The notes under the pieces are model-generated. The model did not search any database. It saw nothing but the letters and a program-made list of their open reading frames with translations, and was not told where the DNA came from. Shown piece by piece: positions 3,438 through 22,878 of a stretch of DNA of 22,878 nucleotides. The position numbers and the translations under genes were made by a program. Every line of letters begins with the position of its first letter. Within the stretch, counting starts at the first letter, position 1. The DNA comes from a virus, in IMG/VR virus record IMGVR_UViG_3300020438_000295, positions 1-22,878 of that record. One strand, written 5' to 3'.

Positions 3438-3644
3438 ATGGGAAATTTTGATACACGTAAATGGTTTAAAAAACAATACTTAAAAGAAACTGACTTTGGA
3501 GCTGCAGGTACAGATAAAAGAACAGGTCAAGTAGTAGGTGAAATACTTGAATTAATTAGATCTACGGGTGTAGACCCATCAGAAGTAATGGAAGAAATAG
3601 GTCAAGAATTTGGAATTAATTTTGAATTTGGAAGAGGCTTTTAA
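3438..3644 (+). CDS. 68-aa protein with class A head-targeting-like leader
   Basis: The protein begins MGNFDTRKWFKKQYLKE, a variant of the leader found on five other proteins in the window (F-D-[L/T]-[R/K], then an aromatic, ending L-K-E). Cleavage after YLKE, at residue 17, would leave about 51 residues starting TDFGAAGTDKR. The remainder has a helical segment (VVGEILELIRSTG) and ends INFEFGRGF. The start ATG is 13 bases after the previous stop, with an A-rich leader and no Shine-Dalgarno sequence. I infer a small internal head protein; the body matches nothing I recognise. Confidence 0.65.
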   Translation: MGNFDTRKWFKKQYLKETDFGAAGTDKRTGQVVGEILELIRSTGVDPSEVMEEIGQEFGINFEFGRGF

Positions 3645-3709: not shown

Positions 3710-4423
3710 ATGAATGAATTTGATTTAAGAAATTTTCTTTACAATAATCCCTTAATGGAGAAAAAAGAAGACTCTAAAAAAGGTAATAAAGAAGAACAAA
3801 AACGAGCTAAAGGAGCTATTGCTGATGATGAAAAACATATTGCAAAGCTTGAAAAAGATTTAAAATTCCAAAAGAAAAAACTTAAAAAGTTAAAAGCGGA
3901 TGAACCTAAAGACGTTAATGAAGTAATTAAAGAGGGATTTAAACACTGGGACCAAATGAACGACCAGGAAAAAGAAAAATTTATAAAATCCTCAGCTGAG
4001 ATGGGAATTAAAGTAAACCCTGATGGAACACTAGCAGAAGATGACATGAAAGAAGAGATGAAAGACAAAAAACTTACAAAAGAATCTCTTAAAAACATGA
4101 TCAGAGAAAAAATCACTTCTATTTTAAATGAACAAGAAAGGGAAGATGATTTAGAAGATACTGTAAACGTAGATGTAGATAAAAAAGAAGATATTAAAGT
4201 TAAGGATACAGAAACAGTTGACGTTGATAAAGAATCAGAAGAATCTGATATTGAAGTTAAAACTGAAGTCCCAGGTGAAGATGCTGATACAGCTGCTGTA
4301 TTAGGTCTTTTAACTAAAGCTCAAGAAGAAGCTAAAGGAATGGGTGATGAAGTACTAATGGATCAAATTGGTAACACAATTACTTATTTCACAAGAAAGC
4401 ACGTTGTTCAACAATCAGCGTAA
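3710..4423 (+). CDS. Lys/Glu-rich protein with class A leader, possible prohead-core component
   Basis: The 237-residue product begins MNEFDLRNFLYNNPLMEKKE, a class A leader. Residues about 24-63 form a charged helical region rich in Lys and Glu. Around residues 123-139 there is LTKESLKNMIREKITSILNE, which is an internal copy of the class B leader ending in an I-L-N-E site of the gp21-cleavable type. The following section is very acidic with repeated VDVDK units (near 4167 and 4218). The C-terminus is a folded-looking domain (TAAVLGLLTKAQEEAKGMGD, onward). Such composition and internal cleavage-like sites recall T4 prohead core proteins, which are chopped by gp21. This is inferred from composition, not from homology. 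Confidence 0.7.
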   Translation: MNEFDLRNFLYNNPLMEKKEDSKKGNKEEQKRAKGAIADDEKHIAKLEKDLKFQKKKLKKLKADEPKDVNEVIKEGFKHWDQMNDQEKEKFIKSSAEMGIKVNPDGTLAEDDMKEEMKDKKLTKESLKNMIREKITSILNEQEREDDLEDTVNVDVDKKEDIKVKDTETVDVDKESEESDIEVKTEVPGEDADTAAVLGLLTKAQEEAKGMGDEVLMDQIGNTITYFTRKHVVQQSA

Positions 4424-6292: not shown

Positions 6293-6727
6293 ATGGAATT
6301 TGATTTATTAAAATATCTTAAAGAAGGAACATTACATGAAGCAGCAATGGCTTGTCCCATAGCTACTCAAGATTTAGAAGTAAATACTAAAAATAGAGAC
6401 GCTTCTATAAAAGCAGATTATATTAAATATGGCCCATTAAATGTAGATGAACCAGGAGACTACTGGAAAGACTTAGCTGAATATTGGGACACAACAGAAG
6501 AAGCAGCTAAAAAATCACTTTGCGGAAATTGTGTAGCATTTGATATTTCACCTAGAATGGATAAATGTATGCCAGGTCAAGTATCAGATGATAGTGGTAG
6601 ATTAGGATACTGTTGGATGCATAATTTTAAATGCCATTCAGCTAGAACTTGTAGAACTTGGGCTAAAGGTGGTCCTATTACAAAAGATAGTGTATCTTAC
6701 GATTGGCAAGAACGTAAAGAAAGTTAA
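6293..6727 (+). CDS. Cys-rich, HiPIP-like putative Fe-S protein with class A leader
   Basis: The 144-residue product starts MEFDLLKYLKEGTLHEAAMA, a class A leader ending in an L-H-E site at residue 16, so a processed form would begin AAMACP. It has seven cysteines: C21, C77, C80, C92, C107, C114 and C120. The order CGNC-x11-C-x14-C with Gly before the fourth Cys and aromatic residues after it resembles high-potential iron-sulfur proteins (HiPIPs), small electron carriers with one 4Fe-4S cluster. The extra cysteines are not explained by that fold; zinc binding is an alternative. From memory, similar proteins occur in other marine phages. I am fairly sure of metal binding and less sure of the cluster type. 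Confidence 0.7.
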   Translation: MEFDLLKYLKEGTLHEAAMACPIATQDLEVNTKNRDASIKADYIKYGPLNVDEPGDYWKDLAEYWDTTEEAAKKSLCGNCVAFDISPRMDKCMPGQVSDDSGRLGYCWMHNFKCHSARTCRTWAKGGPITKDSVSYDWQERKES

Positions 6728-6728
6728 T

Positions 6729-8195
6729 ATGGATTCAATAGATAAGTTTTTAAAATTATATTCCTATAAATTTCCTAAAGGATATCCTGACATAAATAAT
6801 GAGCAGGATATTTTACTACTCGAAAACATATTAGAGAAATTAAATATTGAAGTTTCTTTAAAAGAGGCAGCTTTATCCCCAACTGAATTAAATAAACCTT
6901 ATACCTCAAGGCATGAACTTGCGGGTCAATATGAAGATAGAGGAGAAAGATTTTTAGAAAAAATTGAAAAAAAACAATCGTTTGAGCTTAATGATGGTTC
7001 TAAAATTACTATTGATGTTGAAAGATCTACTGAAGCCATTAAAAACCTTAAAGATAAGAATTATAATGCCTTTGGAAGAGGAGCTAAAATCTTAATAGAC
7101 ACAGAGGGCAATGCTTATAGCTTATCATTATTTAAAAAAACACCTGAATTTGGTAGTGGAAAAGGAATGGGAGGAGGAGCAGCAAGTACTGCTATTCAAG
7201 AATCTTCTCAAAGTGTAGTAAATGCTATAGCTTATAATGTTAAAAAAGGTCAACTTTCTGAAGAAGATTTAACAGAAGAAAATATAAAAGAAGCATTTAA
7301 ATTTAGTGATATATCTAGCTCATTAGAAGAAGTATTAGATTTTATAAAAAATCAACCTAGTTGGACTAACACATTTATTTCTACAGCTAATATTTTATTA
7401 TCTAATTTCCCAAATTCTTCATTTCAACAACACAGAGGTTCTTCATTTGTAAATTCCATATATGAAGCTTATAAAGCAGCTAAAAAAGGAGCTGGTATTT
7501 CAATGCAAGCCGATAAATGGAATCCTGCAGATATTTGGATGGTAGATGCCTCTATTCTATCAACACAATTTCCAACTGAATTAAAAGAATTAAATGCTTT
7601 ATTAGCTGATCTTTACGCTGAAAATAAATTAATAGGGGTTTCTTTAAAGAAAACAGGAAAAGAAGCTAAAATAGGAACTTATAATTTAAGTGAAGAAGAT
7701 AAAGAAGGATACACTTATACAAATTCAGATTCAAGACCTACAAACAATAATACAGCTATAATATATAGTGATGGAGTTATAACATTTAGAACATTTAATT
7801 TTGCCTCCAATTTTGCAGGTGAAATTAAAGGTAAAACAGCATCTCATGGTAAAATAGGTCAAGGTGCTATAAATGATATTTTAAGAGAAAATAATTTACC
7901 CCTATTACCATCCCCAAAAGATTTACAATCTAAATTTAAATCTAAAGATGAAGATTTAACAGAAGATTTCTATTCAAATTATAATAAAATAGTAGAAGGT
8001 ATATCAAAAGACGAATTTGATGCTATAATAAATAGTAAAGATTTAAACTGGTTAGTATCAAAATATATGTCAACTAAGTTAGCTTCTACAATTGAAGCTC
8101 AAGATCAATCAATACAAGATGAAATAATCTCAGATATGATCCGATATGCCTCATCAGCTACAAAATCTAGTTCAGTATTTGCTAAAATATCATAA
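6729..8195 (+). CDS. large phage protein with possible PD-(D/E)XK nuclease-like core
   Basis: I start this gene at ATG 6729, one base after the preceding stop codon; a longer in-frame start at 6669 would sit inside the previous gene. The product has 488 residues. A leader-like segment near the N-terminus ends VSLKEAAL (L-K-E). Residues about 264-308 carry KWNPADIWMVD and, 33 residues on, IGVSLKK (D268, then S305-L-K307). This spacing resembles the D...(E/S)xK core of PD-(D/E)XK nucleases, with Ser in place of the usual acidic residue. A Gly-rich loop GSGKGMGGGAAS lies near residue 140 but is not a Walker A motif. No catalytic assignment is secure. An (L-x-E)-processed virion protein with a nuclease-like fold is a reasonable hypothesis. 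Confidence 0.65.
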   Translation: MDSIDKFLKLYSYKFPKGYPDINNEQDILLLENILEKLNIEVSLKEAALSPTELNKPYTSRHELAGQYEDRGERFLEKIEKKQSFELNDGSKITIDVERSTEAIKNLKDKNYNAFGRGAKILIDTEGNAYSLSLFKKTPEFGSGKGMGGGAASTAIQESSQSVVNAIAYNVKKGQLSEEDLTEENIKEAFKFSDISSSLEEVLDFIKNQPSWTNTFISTANILLSNFPNSSFQQHRGSSFVNSIYEAYKAAKKGAGISMQADKWNPADIWMVDASILSTQFPTELKELNALLADLYAENKLIGVSLKKTGKEAKIGTYNLSEEDKEGYTYTNSDSRPTNNNTAIIYSDGVITFRTFNFASNFAGEIKGKTASHGKIGQGAINDILRENNLPLLPSPKDLQSKFKSKDEDLTEDFYSNYNKIVEGISKDEFDAIINSKDLNWLVSKYMSTKLASTIEAQDQSIQDEIISDMIRYASSATKSSSVFAKIS

Positions 8196-10781: not shown

Positions 10782-12140
10782 ATGGAAGTAACAGTAATGG
10801 TGGGAGCAGGAGTAGCAAACATAAATGCAGCTACTAAGCTTATAGATAACGGATACAAAGGTAAAATTAAAATTATTGATATGGGTAAAGACCCACATGA
10901 TAGATTACCTGAAGAAGTAATGACAGGAATGTTAGGTGCAGGAGGATGGTCAGATGGTAAATTAACTTATCATACTGAAGTAGGAGGTCAATTATCAAAA
11001 TATTGTGGGAATGAAAAGGCAATGGAGTTAATGGATCAAGTCATTAATAATTTTAAACGTTTTCACCCTAAACCAGAAGCGGTACAATGTTCTGATCCTC
11101 AAGCAGAACCAGAATTTATAAAACCATATTTTGGATTAAAACTATTTCCTGTATGGCACGTTGGTACAGATTATTTACACGAAATAGGTAAAAATTGGTA
11201 TAAATACTTAGTTGATAATGGTGTTGAATTTTACTGGCAGTGGAGAGTAACTAAAATTGATTTTAAAACTAAACACATTGATATGACATCTGAAAAATAT
11301 CCTCAATCAGATGATGATTGGATATTCTTTGATAAACTAATATTTGGTGTGGGTAAATCAGGTATCGATTTTGGTAAACGTTTAGCTGAAAAGTATAAAT
11401 TAAAAACAGAACCTAAAGCAGTTCAAATAGGAGTTAGATTTGAAGCACCACAAAAACATTTCCAAAAACTAATTGATATTAGTTACGATTTTAAATTATA
11501 TAGAAAATTTGAAGATAAAGGTGTATCATTAAGATCATTTTGTACAAACAATAATGCAGCTTATGTAGCAGCAGAACACACATATGGAGATTATAGTTAC
11601 AATGGTCATGCTAAAAAGGATGAAGCATATAGAAATGATATGACTAATTTTGGTATACTAATGGAAATTAGAGGTATAGATAAACCATTTGATTGGTCAA
11701 GAGAAGCAGTTAAAAAATTGCAAAAGAATGGTAAAGGTACATTTTACTCCCCTAATTCAAATAGAGTCCCATCTACCACCTCAGAAGGTGACTATGTAAA
11801 GGTAGAAGTAGTAAATAGTATGTTACCATTATATGATGCATTAGAGGATTATGCTTTTTATATAGAAGATTTTATTGAGGATATGAAGGAAGTATTCCCA
11901 ACATTAGGAAATGATTGGGGAATTTATATGCCTGAAGTTAAATATCTATCACCTGAACCATTAGTTAATTATAATGATTTAAGTTTAGAAGATTACCCAA
12001 ATATACACTTTGTAGGTGATGCTTTATCAGCAAGAGGTATTACAGTATCAGGGGCACAGGGAATATATGTTGCTGAAAGTTTAATTAAACAAAACAAAAA
12101 TGAGCAAGAAAGAGAAATTTTACGAGTACAAAACCATTAG
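10782..12140 (+). CDS. FAD-dependent oxidoreductase (COG2509-like)
   Basis: The 452-residue protein begins with a Rossmann dinucleotide-binding fold: a beta strand MEVTVMV, then GAGVANINAATKL (residues 8-20), where Asn takes the place of the usual third glycine. It ends with an FAD-domain signature HFVGDALSARGITVSGAQGI (near residue 410), typical of the GD...RG....G motif of FAD-dependent dehydrogenases. A mid-protein SFCTNNNAAYVAAEHTYGDY stretch recalls COG2509 enzymes, whose substrates are mostly unknown. No leader or transmembrane segment is visible. The gene follows a terminator and opens its own unit. It is unusual inside a head-gene region, and is best seen as an auxiliary metabolic gene or an RNA/lipid/protein-modifying enzyme; the substrate is not known. 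Confidence 0.8.
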   Translation: MEVTVMVGAGVANINAATKLIDNGYKGKIKIIDMGKDPHDRLPEEVMTGMLGAGGWSDGKLTYHTEVGGQLSKYCGNEKAMELMDQVINNFKRFHPKPEAVQCSDPQAEPEFIKPYFGLKLFPVWHVGTDYLHEIGKNWYKYLVDNGVEFYWQWRVTKIDFKTKHIDMTSEKYPQSDDDWIFFDKLIFGVGKSGIDFGKRLAEKYKLKTEPKAVQIGVRFEAPQKHFQKLIDISYDFKLYRKFEDKGVSLRSFCTNNNAAYVAAEHTYGDYSYNGHAKKDEAYRNDMTNFGILMEIRGIDKPFDWSREAVKKLQKNGKGTFYSPNSNRVPSTTSEGDYVKVEVVNSMLPLYDALEDYAFYIEDFIEDMKEVFPTLGNDWGIYMPEVKYLSPEPLVNYNDLSLEDYPNIHFVGDALSARGITVSGAQGIYVAESLIKQNKNEQEREILRVQNH

Positions 12141-12405: not shown

Positions 12406-12945
12406 ATGAAAATAGGTTTTTGTGGTACAATGTCTGTAGGTAAAACTACATTAGTGAATGAATTAAAAACATTTCCTGAATTTAAGGATTATACATTTAG
12501 AACAGAACGTTCTAAGTATTTAAGAGATTTAGGTATTCCATTAAATACAGATTCAACATTAAAGGGTCAAACAATATTTTTAGCTGAACGAGCAGCTGAA
12601 TTGCTCCAAGAAAACATAATAACGGATAGAACAGTTATTGATGTTATGGCATTTACTAGTTTAGCTGATTCAATTGATTTTAATGAATTAGAAGATTTTG
12701 AAAATCTTGCAGCGAATTTTATTGAGGATTATGATTATATATTTTATGTTTCTCCTGAGGGAGTTGACATTGAAGATAATGGAGTTAGAGAAACAGATGC
12801 TAAATATAGAGATTTAGTAGATCTTAGTATAAATAAATTCTTGAATAGATATAGTTGGAAAATTAAAAATTTAGTAAGATTAAAGGGTACTACTAAAGAA
12901 CGTATAGAAATATTTCAAGAGGCACTTCTTCCCCAATATTTATAA
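12406..12945 (+). CDS. P-loop NTPase/kinase, NadR-like (AAA_28)
   Basis: The 179-residue protein opens MKIGFCGTMSVGKTTLV with a Walker A motif (GTMSVGKTT, residues 7-15). ITDRTVIDVMAF near residue 66 fits the following strand, YDYIFYVSPEG (near 113) resembles the strand before a substrate lid, and DNGVRETDAKYRD fits the (D/E)NGxRxxD segment of the AAA_28 group, which includes the nicotinamide-ribonucleoside kinase part of NadR. It is the length of a stand-alone kinase domain. A phosphotransfer role on a nucleoside or cofactor is likely; whether it acts on nicotinamide riboside is not shown. It follows the FAD enzyme, which is suggestive but no proof of a pathway. Confidence 0.78.
   Translation: MKIGFCGTMSVGKTTLVNELKTFPEFKDYTFRTERSKYLRDLGIPLNTDSTLKGQTIFLAERAAELLQENIITDRTVIDVMAFTSLADSIDFNELEDFENLAANFIEDYDYIFYVSPEGVDIEDNGVRETDAKYRDLVDLSINKFLNRYSWKIKNLVRLKGTTKERIEIFQEALLPQYL
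12935..12944 (+). promoter_or_regulatory. candidate phage promoter element AATATTTATA
   Basis: AATATTTATA overlaps the last codons and stop of the kinase gene and ends 16 bases before the ATG at 12961. It sits in CCCAATATTTATAA, the same 14 bases found at 3018-3031. The spacing would place a start of transcription a few bases before the gene, giving a short A-rich leader. Supported only by repetition and position. Confidence 0.4.
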
Positions 12946-12960
12946 TAAAATATTTTTATA

Positions 12961-13746
12961 ATGAAAAAAGCCCAACTTAAGGAAGCAATCAAAAACGAAA
13001 TTAAATCTGTACTATCAGAAGGAATGACTGATAAAGAAAGAGAAGATAAACTCCAACAAGCTAAAAGAGGTGGGGGAAAAGAAAAACCACTTAGAAAATT
13101 AGCTGCCACAGGTAAAAAAGAAGATTCTTTAAATGAAATTAGCTCTACTGAAGCTAATGCTCAATTAATGGAAATAGTAGAACACCAAAAGGAAATTCTA
13201 TATATTTTAAAAGAGTTAAAAAAAGGAGCTGATCTTGATGCCGCCATTAGGATAATAGAAAATGAAGTAGGTAAAACACTCACTAAAGTTAAAAACCTAA
13301 AACAAATAAAAGGACTTCAAACAACCTTTGCTGATATAAGAGAAGGTACTTGGAGTTCTGGAACTTATAATGAAATTGGGAGATTTATACAAGATGTAAA
13401 AAATCTTAAAGATAAATATTACAACATAGTAGGCAACGATGATGTATTTGATGGTTTAGATAGAGCTGAAGAATCTGCTAGAGAAATGATGATAAATGCT
13501 CCTGAAAACAGATCAGATCTTAATGAAGATGAAATGTCTGATGAAGAAAAAGATAAAGCAGCATCTAAAGGAGCTAAGAAAAAAGATTCAGTAGCTACTA
13601 TATCAAACAAACTTCAAAAACTAACAGCTAAAATGAAGAAAAAAGCTAAAGAGTTTAAAGAAGCTGAGGGTAAAGCTAAAGATAAAATTAAAGACGAGCT
13701 GAAAGACATGACAGCTGAAAAGAAAAAACTTGAAAAATCCCTTTAA
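12961..13746 (+). CDS. Lys/Glu-rich protein with class B leader
   Basis: The 261-residue product starts MKKAQLKEAIKNEIKSVLSE, the clearest class B leader in the window, ending in an L-S-E site at residue 20. A further SLNEISS unit follows near residue 57 and a DLNEDEM unit near 180. The middle (residues about 62-170) is helical (EHQKEILYILKELKKG, VKNLKQIKGLQTTFADIREG), and the last 60 residues are a very Lys-rich helix. The candidate promoter element is 16 bases upstream. Its end overlaps the start of the next gene by 17 bases. I infer a head-internal or core protein that is cut by the prohead protease; sequence family not recognised. Confidence 0.7.
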   Translation: MKKAQLKEAIKNEIKSVLSEGMTDKEREDKLQQAKRGGGKEKPLRKLAATGKKEDSLNEISSTEANAQLMEIVEHQKEILYILKELKKGADLDAAIRIIENEVGKTLTKVKNLKQIKGLQTTFADIREGTWSSGTYNEIGRFIQDVKNLKDKYYNIVGNDDVFDGLDRAEESAREMMINAPENRSDLNEDEMSDEEKDKAASKGAKKKDSVATISNKLQKLTAKMKKKAKEFKEAEGKAKDKIKDELKDMTAEKKKLEKSL

Positions 13747-16076: not shown

Positions 16077-17969
16077 ATGGCAGATACAAGATTATTTTCA
16101 AGATTAAAAAGGTTATTTTCAACTGATGTAATAATTCGTAACCAAGGTGGGAACCAAATTAAGGTTATGGATGTTAATAAAATCCAACAATCAGGTGAAT
16201 ATGAGACTAATTCATTAGTAGATAGATTTAATAGAATATACTCCACATCTCCTACTTCTTTATATGGTTACCAAAGTAATTTCAATTATCAAACATTAAG
16301 ACCCCAACTCTACTCAGAATATGATTCTATGGATACAGATGCTATTATAGCTTCTGCTTTAGATATTATTGCTGATGAAAGTACTCTTAAAAATGATATG
16401 GGTGAAGTACTTCAAATTAGAAGTTCTGATGAAAATATACAAAAAATATTGTATAATTTATTTTATGATGTTTTAAATGTAGAATTTAATCTTTGGCCTT
16501 GGATTAGAAATATGTGTAAATATGGTGATTTTTTCTTAAAATTAGAAATTGCCGAAAAATTTGGTGTATATAACGTTATACCTTACAATGCATATCACAT
16601 AGAAAGAATCGAAGGAGGAGAACCAGATAAACCAGCAACAATACAATATAAATTCAACCCTGAAGGAGTCTCAGCAGGAGGTTATGGTTATTATAATGTT
16701 CCAACTTCAGATAATTTAAATGGTAGTGAAATTATATTTGACAATTATGAAATGACCCATTTTAGGTTGCTTACAGATACCAACTTTTTACCCTATGGTA
16801 GATCCTACATAGAACCAGCACGTAAATTGTTTAAACAGTACGTCCTAATGGAAGATGCGATGCTTATACATAGAATAGTAAGAGCACCTGAAAAACGCAT
16901 ATTTTACATCAACGTAGGAAATATTCCACCTGCTGAAGTAGAAAATTTTATGCAAAAGACTATTTCTAAAATGAAACGTACTCCATACATGGATAAACAA
17001 ACAGGGGAATATAACTTAAAATATAACATGCAAAACATGTTAGAGGATTTTTACATCCCAATTAGAGGTAATGATACAGCAACTAAAATAGACACTACCC
17101 CAGGATTACAATACGATGGTATTGCTGATGTAGAATATTTAAGAGAAAAATTATTTGCTGCTTTAAAAGTACCTAAAGCTTTTATGGGTTACGATGCTGA
17201 TACAGATGGTAAAGCTACATTAGCGGCACAAGATATTAGATTTGCTCGTACGATAGAAAGAATTCAAAGAATTATTGTATCTGAATTACAAAAGATAGCA
17301 TTAGTACATTTATATACTCAAGGTTATAAAGATGAAAGTTTAACTAACTTTGAATTATCAATGACTACCCCATCAATTATATACGATCAAGAGAGAGTAG
17401 CATTAATGACAGAAAAAATGACTTTAGCTCAATCAATGATTGATAGTCAAATTATTCCTACAGATTGGATTTATGAAAACATTTTTCACTTTAGTGAAGA
17501 CCAATATGATGAATACAGATCTTTAGTTAAACAAGATGCTAAACGTAAATTTAGATTATCTCAAATAGAAAATGAAGGAAATGATCCTCAAGAAACAGGT
17601 AAATCTTATGGTACACCTCATGATTTAGCTTCACTATATGGGGTAGGAAGAACCCAATCAGATCCTGGTAATGTTCCTGATGGGTATAATGAAAAAGAAC
17701 CATTAGGTAGAAAAAAGAAAAAGAAAACAGATAGAGGTACTCAAGATAATGCCTTTGGTAAAGACCCATTAGGTAGAAAGGGAATGAAAAATGATGACAA
17801 TGAATCTAATAGCATAAAACCTAAATTTAAAGGTGGTTCTCCATTAGCTTTAGAGACAAAAACTATGCTTGAAAAGGCACCTCGTCCACCTCGTACTGAA
17901 AAACAATTAGTTTTTGAGCAAAATAAACAAGGAGAAAGTTTATTAGATGAAAACCAATTGAAAGAGTAA
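16077..17969 (+). CDS. portal protein (gp20-like)
   Basis: The portal is a ring of twelve subunits at one vertex of the head that starts prohead assembly and passes DNA. The pattern PWIRNMCKYGDFFLKLEIAE, MTHFRLLTDTNFLPYGRSY, IEPARKLFKQYVLMEDAMLI and HRIVRAPEKRIFYINVGNIP (residues about 139-284) is typical of gp20 of T4-like phages, as is LFAALKVPKAFMGYDAD. The protein has 630 residues against 524 in T4; the extra length is mainly a disordered, Lys-rich C-terminal tail after residue about 520. That tail holds a doubled unit, KEPLGRK (about 540) and KDPLGRK (562). Its start follows a candidate promoter element. Confidence is high for the family. Confidence 0.95.
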   Translation: MADTRLFSRLKRLFSTDVIIRNQGGNQIKVMDVNKIQQSGEYETNSLVDRFNRIYSTSPTSLYGYQSNFNYQTLRPQLYSEYDSMDTDAIIASALDIIADESTLKNDMGEVLQIRSSDENIQKILYNLFYDVLNVEFNLWPWIRNMCKYGDFFLKLEIAEKFGVYNVIPYNAYHIERIEGGEPDKPATIQYKFNPEGVSAGGYGYYNVPTSDNLNGSEIIFDNYEMTHFRLLTDTNFLPYGRSYIEPARKLFKQYVLMEDAMLIHRIVRAPEKRIFYINVGNIPPAEVENFMQKTISKMKRTPYMDKQTGEYNLKYNMQNMLEDFYIPIRGNDTATKIDTTPGLQYDGIADVEYLREKLFAALKVPKAFMGYDADTDGKATLAAQDIRFARTIERIQRIIVSELQKIALVHLYTQGYKDESLTNFELSMTTPSIIYDQERVALMTEKMTLAQSMIDSQIIPTDWIYENIFHFSEDQYDEYRSLVKQDAKRKFRLSQIENEGNDPQETGKSYGTPHDLASLYGVGRTQSDPGNVPDGYNEKEPLGRKKKKKTDRGTQDNAFGKDPLGRKGMKNDDNESNSIKPKFKGGSPLALETKTMLEKAPRPPRTEKQLVFEQNKQGESLLDENQLKE

Positions 17970-20910: not shown

Positions 20911-21510
20911 ATGAAACAAGTACTTATAGAAACTCAATTATTCAAACCTACTAAAGGTTTACTATCAGAAGGACATATGTCTGAAAGAGGTAATCCTTTA
21001 GTACAAGGCATACTAGCAACCTGTGAGGTTAAAAATGGTAATGGTAGATTTTATTCTGAAGAATTATGGAAACGAGAAATAGATAAGTACATGGAATTAG
21101 TTAATCAAAATAGAGCATGTGGTGAATTAGATCACCCTGAATCTCAAGTTGTTAACTTAAAAAATGTTTCACATAACATCAAAGACATAAATTGGGATGG
21201 TAAAAACATAATGGGTACAATAGAAATATTACCTACACCATCAGGAAACATACTTAAAGCATTAATTGATAGTGGTATTACAGTAGGAGTATCATCACGA
21301 GGAATGGGTTCATTAGAACAAAATGGAGATATAATGGAAGTTCAAGATGATTTTGAATTATTATGTTGGGATTTTGTTTCTACACCTTCTAACCCAGGTT
21401 CATATATGACATTAAAAGAAGGAAAAGAAAACATTATAAACCCATACGCGAAAGCAAACACTATAGTAACAGAAATACTATGTGCAAACGGCAATTGCCC
21501 AATATTTTAA
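20911..21510 (+). CDS. prohead protease (gp21-like, peptidase S77)
   Basis: This serine protease acts inside the T4-type prohead: it cuts the capsid protein, core proteins and targeted internal proteins, usually after (L/I)-x-E, and then itself. The 199-residue protein is near T4 gp21 length (212). ACGELDHPES holds the likely catalytic His75, and TVGVSSRGMGS the catalytic Ser (128 or 129), in the order and spacing of herpesvirus-type maturation proteases. The N-terminus KPTKGLLSEGHMSERGNPLV has (L/M)-S-E sites that could be self-cleaved. It begins one base after the previous stop. The genes that follow carry leaders with sites of its expected type. Confidence 0.93.
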   Translation: MKQVLIETQLFKPTKGLLSEGHMSERGNPLVQGILATCEVKNGNGRFYSEELWKREIDKYMELVNQNRACGELDHPESQVVNLKNVSHNIKDINWDGKNIMGTIEILPTPSGNILKALIDSGITVGVSSRGMGSLEQNGDIMEVQDDFELLCWDFVSTPSNPGSYMTLKEGKENIINPYAKANTIVTEILCANGNCPIF

Positions 21511-21513
21511 AAA

Positions 21514-21567
21514 ATGAAAGATTTCGATTTAAGAAAATATTTAGCTGAAAACAAGTTAGTAAAAGAA
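21514..21567 (+). repeat. leader repeat copy 1 (codons 1-18)
   Basis: The first 54 bases agree with copy 2 (22171) at 49 of 54 positions and with copy 3 (22619) at 46 of 54 by direct comparison. Similarity stops just after the K-E codons. Differences include silent ones (GCT/GCA, TTC/TTT), so the peptide is under constraint. Confidence 0.85.
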
Positions 21568-22161
21568 GAACAAGGATCAATAACTATAAATTCTGAGGTT
21601 GATTTTGAAACTCCATTATCAAACATGGAAAATTCAGCACTAGAACCAAATCCAGAAGAAACTAATGTAATATTAGATTTTATTGGTTTTATAAGAGATA
21701 AGTATTCAAATTTATCATACAAACAATTTAGAGAATTTAGTGGAGATATCTTAAGAGATTCATTAGAAGAATTTGAAGATGAAGTTGACCCTCCTTTTAT
21801 GACTAATGTAGCAGTAGATAATTATATTGATTTGGTTTATGAGTTTGTAAATGAGTTGGATCTTAATTACCAAGAAGAATTAGAGGAAATTGATATGACT
21901 ATCAGTAGTGAAGCAGTTGAATCTTCAGTAAAACAAGGTTTAAATCAAATGTTTGAAAGATTAGCTGATATTGTTGATAATAAAGAGGATATTCAATCTG
22001 AAACACTAGGTGTAACTAATTATATTAAAGGGTTAATGAGAGAATATGCTAAATATGCTAATATGGATCGTCGAGACTCAATAGAAGGTGGAAATAAATT
22101 TTCAAAACAAGGTAAAGAAGAAGCAAGACAAGAAATCGAGAGAATATTATCAATGAAATAA
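21514..22161 (+). CDS. class A leader protein 1 (tandem set)
   Basis: The 215-residue product begins MKDFDLRKYLAENKLVKEEQ, a class A leader with a V-K-E site at residue 18. The body is acidic and mostly helical (VILDFIGFIRDKYSNLSYKQ, FREFSGDILRDSLEEFEDEV, VAVDNYIDLVYEFVNELDLN) and ends with a basic helix (GGNKFSKQGKEEARQEIERI). It follows the prohead protease by 3 bases and is the first of three tandem genes with the same leader but unrelated bodies. T4 places its scaffold gene 22 at this point, and an acidic helical body would suit a scaffold or internal head protein. No homology to gp22 was recognised. Confidence 0.7.
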   Translation: MKDFDLRKYLAENKLVKEEQGSITINSEVDFETPLSNMENSALEPNPEETNVILDFIGFIRDKYSNLSYKQFREFSGDILRDSLEEFEDEVDPPFMTNVAVDNYIDLVYEFVNELDLNYQEELEEIDMTISSEAVESSVKQGLNQMFERLADIVDNKEDIQSETLGVTNYIKGLMREYAKYANMDRRDSIEGGNKFSKQGKEEARQEIERILSMK

Positions 22162-22170
22162 TAAAAAGAT

Positions 22171-22224
22171 ATGAAAGATTTTGATTTAAAAAAATATTTA
22201 GCAGAAAACAAGCTATTAAAAGAA
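22171..22224 (+). repeat. leader repeat copy 2 (codons 1-18)
   Basis: This copy agrees with copy 1 and copy 3 at 49 of 54 bases each. It has TTT for Phe4 where the others have TTC. The similarity ends abruptly at the end of the leader. Confidence 0.85.
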
Positions 22225-22602
22225 AACAATCTCATAGATGAAAAACCATACATAGATGGTCTTGGTTTAGAAAAATTATATGATATCAAAAATAGATATG
22301 AAAAAGAAGGAAATCCTTTTGAAATAGAAAATGAGGTACAAGCTTATATTAATAGTAGAATAGAAAAATTAGAATCTCAACAAGAATATTATAACTCAAA
22401 AATTGGTATTTGGCAATATGGAGTAAATAAATTAAGCCCTGAAGATTTAGACATTTTACAATCTGCACAAAAAAGTGGAAAAATAGGTAATAAAGTAGGA
22501 ACTAGACTATCAGAGCCTGATATGGTGATATCTTATAATTCAGGAGATAAAGACATAGAAAACTTATTAAAATCTATTGAAAAAGACCCAGATTACTCTT
22601 AA
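22171..22602 (+). CDS. class A leader protein 2 (tandem set)
   Basis: The 143-residue product starts MKDFDLKKYLAENKLLKENN, a class A leader with an L-K-E site at residue 18. Cleavage there would leave 125 residues starting NNLIDEKPYIDGL. The body is helical (GLGLEKLYDIKNRYEKEGNP, AYINSRIEKLESQQEYYNSK) and ends LLKSIEKDPDYS; it shows no resemblance to the body of the gene before it. The start is 9 bases after the previous stop in an A-rich leader. I infer a small internal head protein; there is no evidence of enzymatic function. Confidence 0.7.
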   Translation: MKDFDLKKYLAENKLLKENNLIDEKPYIDGLGLEKLYDIKNRYEKEGNPFEIENEVQAYINSRIEKLESQQEYYNSKIGIWQYGVNKLSPEDLDILQSAQKSGKIGNKVGTRLSEPDMVISYNSGDKDIENLLKSIEKDPDYS

Positions 22603-22618
22603 AATAAAACAAAATAAA

Positions 22619-22672
22619 ATGAAAGATTTCGATTTAAAAGGATACTTAGCAGAAAATAAGCTATTAAAAGAA
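22619..22672 (+). repeat. leader repeat copy 3 (codons 1-18)
   Basis: Third tandem copy of the leader-coding sequence, with GGA (Gly8) in place of AAA/AAA Lys and TAC/AAT silent changes. It agrees with copy 1 at 46 of 54 bases and with copy 2 at 49 of 54. Confidence 0.85.
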
Positions 22673-22878
22673 GAAGAATTTGTATTCCCAATGGAATTTC
22701 AATTGAAAGAAGATGTAAACTATGAATCATTTGGAGTACATGGAGGTATACTATATAAAGGAGCCTATGTAAAAGATAGAATAGAATCTACTTATGATGA
22801 AGCTCTTTATGTAAATGTAGAAGCAGAACATGAAGCTAGATTAGATAAAGATGACATTAGAAATTTAAGACGATTAGG
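22619..22878 (+). CDS. class A leader protein 3, 3'-partial
   Basis: The gene starts at ATG 22619 and is open to the window end, with 86 full codons visible. It begins MKDFDLKGYLAENKLLKEEE, then FVFPMEFQLKEDVNYESFG, VHGGILYKGAYVKDRIESTY and VNVEAEHEARLDKDDIRNLR. The leader is almost the same as in the two genes before it, but the body is different and looks beta-rich at first. It is cut off, so neither length nor function can be stated. Confidence 0.7.
   Translation, partial: MKDFDLKGYLAENKLLKEEEFVFPMEFQLKEDVNYESFGVHGGILYKGAYVKDRIESTYDEALYVNVEAEHEARLDKDDIRNLRRL

Follow-up and report, generated by a model that had tools for sequence, protein, structure and literature searches.

In T-even bacteriophages a conserved capsid-targeting sequence (CTS) is joined to diverse bodies (PMC3012670), and conserved tags on diverse bodies in these phages are also attributed to Repoila 1994, to the extent that this work is represented in PMC12373910, where it is cited. 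The internal proteins (IPs) of T4 are injected anti-restriction proteins, and each of its three IPs is an inhibitor of a different type IV restriction enzyme (PMC12373910). In T4 gp21 cleaves after L/I-X-E, and within the tag residues 4 and 7 serve in targeting and residues 8 and 10 in processing (PMC9026906). The propeptides of giant-phage head proteins have been inferred to serve in targeting (PMC5694885, PMC10052503).

The locus described here lies in a 22,878-base IMG/VR fragment (the window, meaning the whole stretch of DNA analysed) of a T4-like myophage, a marine virus of bacteria. The window terminase shares 58% identity with its counterpart in Flavobacterium phage immuto, through which the hosts are inferred to be, probably, Bacteroidota. 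The gene for a gp21-type prohead protease, predicted to be the processing enzyme, occupies 20911..21510 on the plus strand (E=1.1e-56 to PHROG 207, head maturation protease), just upstream of the genes discussed below, where the original prediction had placed it. Relatives of this protease are encoded by 592 viral-contig stretches. The window protease contains LIE at residues 5-7; T4 gp21 carries near its start LIE-9, which conforms to its own cleavage logo (PMC9026906). The portal gene (16077-17969, PHROG 213) is located upstream of the protease gene. The portal C-terminus displays a conserved LLDE[NSR][QR][LI][KR]E-like sequence, in the window and similarly in L044, L057, L067-L069, L073, L076, L078, L119 and L140, with a prohead-protease motif at the last residue. 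It should be noted that the basis of the analysis is all computational; the contigs are fragmentary, some near-duplicates are left and gene starts were called mechanically.

Three consecutive ATG genes (21514-22161, 22171-22602 and 22619->22876, the third truncated by the window end) are flanked by the protease on one side and, on the other, by the slot that in relatives houses a gp22-like scaffold gene. The three proteins share an 18-residue start, MKDFDL[RK]xYLAENKL[LV]KE, beyond which similarity is at chance level. The tag of gene 1, MKDFDLRKYLAENKLVKE (21514..21567, plus strand), in which the sequence and the pattern census described below identify LAE12 and VKE18 as candidate cut sites, precedes a body of 197 residues (21568..22161, plus strand) that belongs to no PHROG or Pfam family. 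Gene 2 comprises the tag MKDFDLKKYLAENKLLKE (22171..22224, plus strand), with candidate sites LAE12 and LKE18, and a 125-residue body (22225..22602, plus strand). The tag of gene 3, MKDFDLKGYLAENKLLKE (22619..22672, plus strand), ends in LKE, and 68 residues of its body are seen before the window end cuts it off (22673..22876, plus strand). The bodies of genes 1 and 2, the complete ones, have no PHROG family match. The claim that the starts are nearly identical over 18 codons, with 46-49 of 54 bases in agreement, proved exact: pairwise identities of the leader DNA are 49, 46 and 49 of 54, while in the 30-base blocks that follow only 6-14 positions match. Simulation of codon usage in this AT-rich genome, given the protein identity, yielded expected leader identities of 45, 42.7 and 44.7 of 54, the simulation fractions for the observed identities being 0.04-0.11. 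As protein identity and codon usage predict nearly as much, the likeness of the leader DNA is mostly a protein-level constraint, and on the strength of the simulation we rejected the view that the 46-49/54 identity arises at the DNA level alone.

The tag had been proposed to resemble the T4 sequence MKTYQEFIAEA, which is correct for IPII and IPIII in the T4 record. The resemblance stands as a pattern (an aromatic at residue 4, then aromatic-L/I-A-E) but not as demonstrable homology, a tblastn search of the window leader against 50,697 phage records returning no match. Divergent tags of immuto were detected at E 0.003-0.009 when the immuto genome alone was searched, and a text search for the tag sequence found no paper containing it among those that could be searched. 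The gp21 rule invoked in the same context, (L/I)-x-E, is as published (PMC9026906), and the LKE of genes 2 and 3 fits it, but the distal site of gene 1, VKE, is outside the strict rule. Processing of the gene 1 product, in which LAE occupies residues 10-12, may depend on LAE12.

The distribution of the tag was explored by scanning 2.9 million viral contigs with a degenerate DNA pattern for [KNDE]FDL[KR]K[YF]LAE, the counts being of matches listed. Among these the pattern was at the protein start in 161 of 165 unique viral matches. The control, 257 Gb of bacterial and archaeal genomes, contained eight pattern matches, only two at a protein start, one of which (L230) looks phage-like. Tagged proteins with usable bodies, 160 among the matches listed, form at least 75 body clusters, which is an undercount because multi-body fusions chain some clusters. 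Across the 75 clusters the tag core is 78% identical, compared with 6.6% for the 30 residues beyond, a value that equals random expectation. Alignment of 93 tagged proteins gave the consensus MDNFDLKKYLAEGKLxxE, with almost nothing conserved after it. When all predicted proteins in the loci were considered, the reduced-alphabet 7-mer FDLKKFL was near the start in 58 body clusters, while in an internal control segment no 7-mer occurred in more than two. By scan, body 1 was found in one further contig and body 2 in one, against the 592 stretches that encode the protease. Body 1 also has more distant relatives, in L018, L019, L105 and L197, and it is a mosaic, its C-terminal half being common with L267 and its N-terminal part different. 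Of 26 contigs that are tagged or related, 13 have a gp21 homologue, among them all six longer than 65 kb; the contigs without a protease match, half of those searched, are mostly short fragments.

A prohead-protease motif is conserved at the end of the tag. Among the matches listed, 145 of 164 tags (88%) contain [LIM]xE no more than 12 residues after KYLAE, compared with 12.8% of body 12-mers; the remaining 19 lack [LIM]xE in the next 12 residues, although several have VxE or another xE. L/I-x-E is a short motif, with chance occurrence in 13-15% of comparable stretches. The tag has two lengths, KL-x-E and KLLK-E, and the residue before E is free (K, F, Y, N, H or T). As this middle residue varies freely with L and E kept, the conserved unit is L-x-E. 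Judged by sequence alone, a second candidate cut site is provided by LAE (residues 10-12).

The tandem arrangement was borne out, but tag-like starts at 3438, 3710 and 6293 had been missed by the original prediction. All of these genes are on the plus strand. The gene at 3438..3644 has a related start, MGNFDTRKWFKKQYLKE, identified from its sequence. Variant tags open the genes at 3710..4423 (MNEFDLRNFLYNNPLME), with homologous bodies (EDSKKGN...) under other tags elsewhere, and at 6293..6727 (MEFDLLKYLKEGTLHE), the body of which is related to phage proteins annotated HiPIP; these homologues mostly match the body only. In the unrelated Actinomycetia phage DSL-LC01 (L271) a different N-terminal part precedes the homologous HiPIP-like domain, and the next gene downstream is annotated as a capsid maturation protease. 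A second tag class, MKKAQLKEAIKNEIKSVLSE, is recognized by sequence in the plus-strand gene at 12961..13746, and a start of this design fills the protease-scaffold slot in L018, L019 and L078. A shared N-terminal element, approximately KKGYPDMNN or FPKGYPDINN, was observed on large, differing proteins of the window (6726-8195) and immuto (L004:21532). Unlike many neighbours, a P-loop protein (12406-12945) and an apparent FAD/NAD-binding oxidoreductase (10782-12140) of the window are untagged, both opening directly with nucleotide-binding motifs.

The same bodies occur behind different tags. The body NEEQGYTL... follows MDNFDLKKYLAEGKLYE in L207 and MKELNTFRQYLTEGVIKE in L157, the body DNGPEE follows MDNFDLRKYLAEGRLYEEAV in L127 and MKKSELVKLIKEELNIQ in the cultured phage immuto, and the body DITKLRGQE follows MENFNLKKYLAESKLLKE in L139 and MKELSRFRQFLAEGIIKE in L157, while the RDRCLRIADRKF body has at least five different starts. 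A zeta-toxin-like kinase (Pfam E=2e-17, above the cut-off), whose domain starts at residue 19, directly past the tag, was seen with MNDFDFKKYLAEGRLLKE, with MISLINLLKE and, in a cultured marine phage, with MKTFAELQE; overall, the starts of this kinase comprise an FDF tag, MISLINLLKE and similar sequences, and MKTFAELQE and MIPFILKE in cultured marine phages. In 17 distinct body pairs local alignments typically begin at L/I-x-E itself, and the alternative tags on the same bodies have little in common except this motif. A first junction statistic was not above its null and is uninformative, as the alignments begin at or before the motif itself. The immuto gene directly after that phage's own protease starts with MENNFDIHKWQAKFLKE, and its body resembles, by eye, that of FDL-tagged L127_855.

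The protease-scaffold slot varies between relatives from 127 to 2,935 bp and holds 0-3 tagged genes; it is empty in L007, the protease of which is 95% identical. Other tag types in the slot of relatives are MRKSELRQIIKEEISKVLNE, MNTTELKQIIKEELTKILNE and MKKQIISEEFLKFQKLAGLI. From the ATG to just beyond the stop (22171-22608) gene 2 exhibits 98.2% DNA identity to L105, whereas the L105 flanks are only 82.3% (protease region) and 78% (gene upstream) identical to the window, and thus the gene was recently exchanged as a cassette. An N-terminus resembling MKKQI[IL]SE[EQ]FxxxQxLAG[LIV][LI]TES recurs in the slot of L055, L056, L063 and L076 and in immuto (L004:16676). This MKKQI[IL]SE-type start is on several unrelated bodies and is probably another tag type. 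Two tags in series, MKDFDLKTFISKNPLLEEH...MKKSELRKII, were observed on one protein (L094:5098 and L109:366).

The functions of the bodies are largely unknown. Searches of the 93 tagged proteins against Pfam, PHROGs and PADLOC gave few real matches, comprising the zeta-toxin-like kinase, weak AAA/dNK matches and a PHROG ATPase; the PADLOC matches (best E 0.001) were treated as noise. No peptidase domain was found in the tagged proteins scanned, and no embedded metallopeptidase domain was matched by Pfam in the 93, although weak matches could be missed. The AF2 model of gene 1 (pLDDT 41) is unusable. The recurrent body L149 was modelled with a pLDDT of 74, the means of body blocks being about 75-94 while tag residues 1-14 are mostly below 50. 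As the body is confident and residues 1-14 are not, the tag is outside that fold. In a fold search L149 matched nothing in the PDB (best E 0.97), and at E<=0.001 there was only a single viral match, without a name.

Some tagged proteins contain several bodies, as revealed by homology to stand-alone bodies. These fused proteins retain one full tag, at the start. Internal tag remnants (such as ...KLAEGKLLKE|NIDFPEL...) number 27 in tagged proteins compared with 1.75 in shuffles, and in L202 an internal tag persists with isoleucine in place of its start methionine. Low-complexity acidic bodies inflated the counts of a joint survey with loose settings, and a stricter survey was used instead. In the latter 36 joints were located without using the motif, as positions within a protein at which a body known in stand-alone form starts. 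L/I/V/M/F-x-E is at 27 of the 36, against a background of 15%, and the full tag at only two. The associated P value of 2e-15 overstates independence, as joints and tags are related by descent. The joints thus appear to keep the part predicted to be needed for cutting and to lose the part expected for targeting. We read the multi-body proteins as natural cut-apart fusions, although cleavage, like injection, is only inferred.

The comparisons demonstrate a modular tag, a conserved motif, tag swaps, cassette exchange and the nature of the joints. The tag-swapping system of the original prediction is supported by many bodies under one tag, one body under different tags, the exchanged cassette, the motif at tag ends and joints, and the gp21 homologues; delivery to the head remains an inference. 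We consider it likely, with considerable confidence, that the 18-residue start is a capsid-targeting propeptide that undergoes cleavage, but in the absence of virion proteomics scaffold binding, cleavage, packaging and injection are all inferred. By analogy with T4, the tag, a short aromatic-containing helix (FDL[RK]K[YF]L) at the N-terminus, would bind the prohead scaffold core during assembly. The adjacent gp21-type protease would then cleave after L/I-x-E (LAE12 and/or LKE18), freeing the body in the head, and the bodies, again as in T4, may be injected with the DNA and act early in infection. Injection is without direct support because body functions are so poorly understood. The tag is a portable module: bodies gain, lose and exchange tags, and tag-body cassettes recombine into the protease-scaffold slot. 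Adjacent tagged genes also fuse, and one targeting part together with a putative cut site at most joints could allow several bodies to be delivered and then separated.

Other explanations for these data can be envisaged. The joints could reflect plain gene fusion and neutral decay; however, neutral decay by itself gives no reason for the cut motif to be favoured at these positions. The tag could also remain uncut and dock its protein permanently to scaffold, capsid or portal, with L/I-x-E merely a by-product of a conserved amphipathic L/K/E-rich helix. The motif is indeed short, K, L and E abound in the tag, and AF2 predicts helix at residues 6-12 of gene 1 (at low confidence) and at residues 6-11 and 14-19 of L149. 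Such a helix is, however, difficult to reconcile with the retention of L and E around a freely varying residue, with the same L/I-x-E ending on unrelated tag types, with fusion joints that retain the xE part and drop the FDLRKY part, and with the adjoining gp21-type protease, and we view an uncut tag as unlikely.

It is also conceivable that selection acts on the nucleic acid (DNA or RNA), favouring the shuffling of cassettes or the strength of the start site, the encoded peptide being incidental. Leader-only islands of ~48-78 bp are ~80-92% identical between different genes, some extending past the ATG; codon sharing of tags is 81% within a contig and 73% between contigs, and the exchanged cassette has an edge at the ATG. 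This explanation nevertheless seems very improbable, as the DNA likeness is close to that predicted from protein identity and codon usage, the tags on the same bodies differ in sequence but are alike in protein design, and the internal remnants in fused proteins cannot serve as starts. There is scarcely any case for the tag being a degradation signal or an address elsewhere, such as the tail or baseplate, the host membrane or the replication site. While the tagged genes of some contigs are far from the protease, the protease-scaffold slot is used repeatedly, the L/I-x-E design is common to the tags and other tag types are in the same slot.

The proposal that the tag is a cleaved capsid-targeting propeptide can be extended to a general cargo-delivery code of marine T4-like phages, in which several short N-terminal tags, mutually replaceable and dissimilar in sequence but each ending in or near L/I-x-E, would address a large pool of enzymes and inhibitors to the head, and fused cargoes would be head polyproteins that are targeted once and cut at each joint by the prohead protease. 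The tags in the proposed code are FDL[RK]KYLAEGKLxE, MKKSELRxxIKEEI..LxE, M[IK]xLxxLLKE, MKELxxFRQFLxEGxIKE, MKDLKxIQEFFSKPxxE and LQKLAGLITES. We hold the arguments for and against this wider extension to be evenly balanced. If the proposal is correct, the tag makes it possible to search for proteins carried in phage heads and probably injected, and the otherwise unannotated bodies, at least 75 clusters among the matches listed, are candidates for factors with which marine phages take over the host early in infection or counter its defences. Given that three T4 IPs act against distinct enzymes, the diversity of the bodies would suggest a broad arms race. The natural tags, tag swaps and cut-apart fusions are directly testable, the cultured relative being Flavobacterium phage immuto.

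The class of mechanism proposed is known from T4. In the T4 internal proteins (IPI, IPII, IPIII and Alt), as here, a short N-terminal propeptide is on unrelated bodies, with an aromatic at residue 4, aromatic-(L/I)-A-E, an (L/I)-x-E cut rule and a gp21-type protease encoded, and in both systems the accessory genes vary between relatives. In contrast to the 10-residue T4 tag, the tag described here has 18 residues, two candidate sites and no detectable sequence homology to its T4 counterpart. The bodies are also far more numerous, the tags are of several types that can replace one another, candidate cut sites are retained in multi-body fusions and the slot adjoins the protease gene, whereas the T4 ip genes are among early-region accessory genes and not next to the protease gene. 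As far as searched, the tag, its scale and interchangeability, the protease-scaffold slot and the cut-site joints seem undescribed. In the giant phages SPN3US, phiKZ and 201phi2-1 head proteins similarly lose N-terminal propeptides to a gp21-related protease, after x-E (PMC5694885, PMC10052503), although the SPN3US propeptides are mostly 111-254 residues, compared with the short tag shared here by dozens of unrelated small bodies. The fusions may be compared with the polyvalent proteins of phages and plasmids, in which several domains in one polypeptide are to be separated later; those proteins are injected (PMC5512222), and for the fusions both injection and separation are inferences. In polyvalent proteins an embedded metallopeptidase was proposed as the cutter (PMC5512222), whereas the joints described here carry sites of the prohead-protease type.
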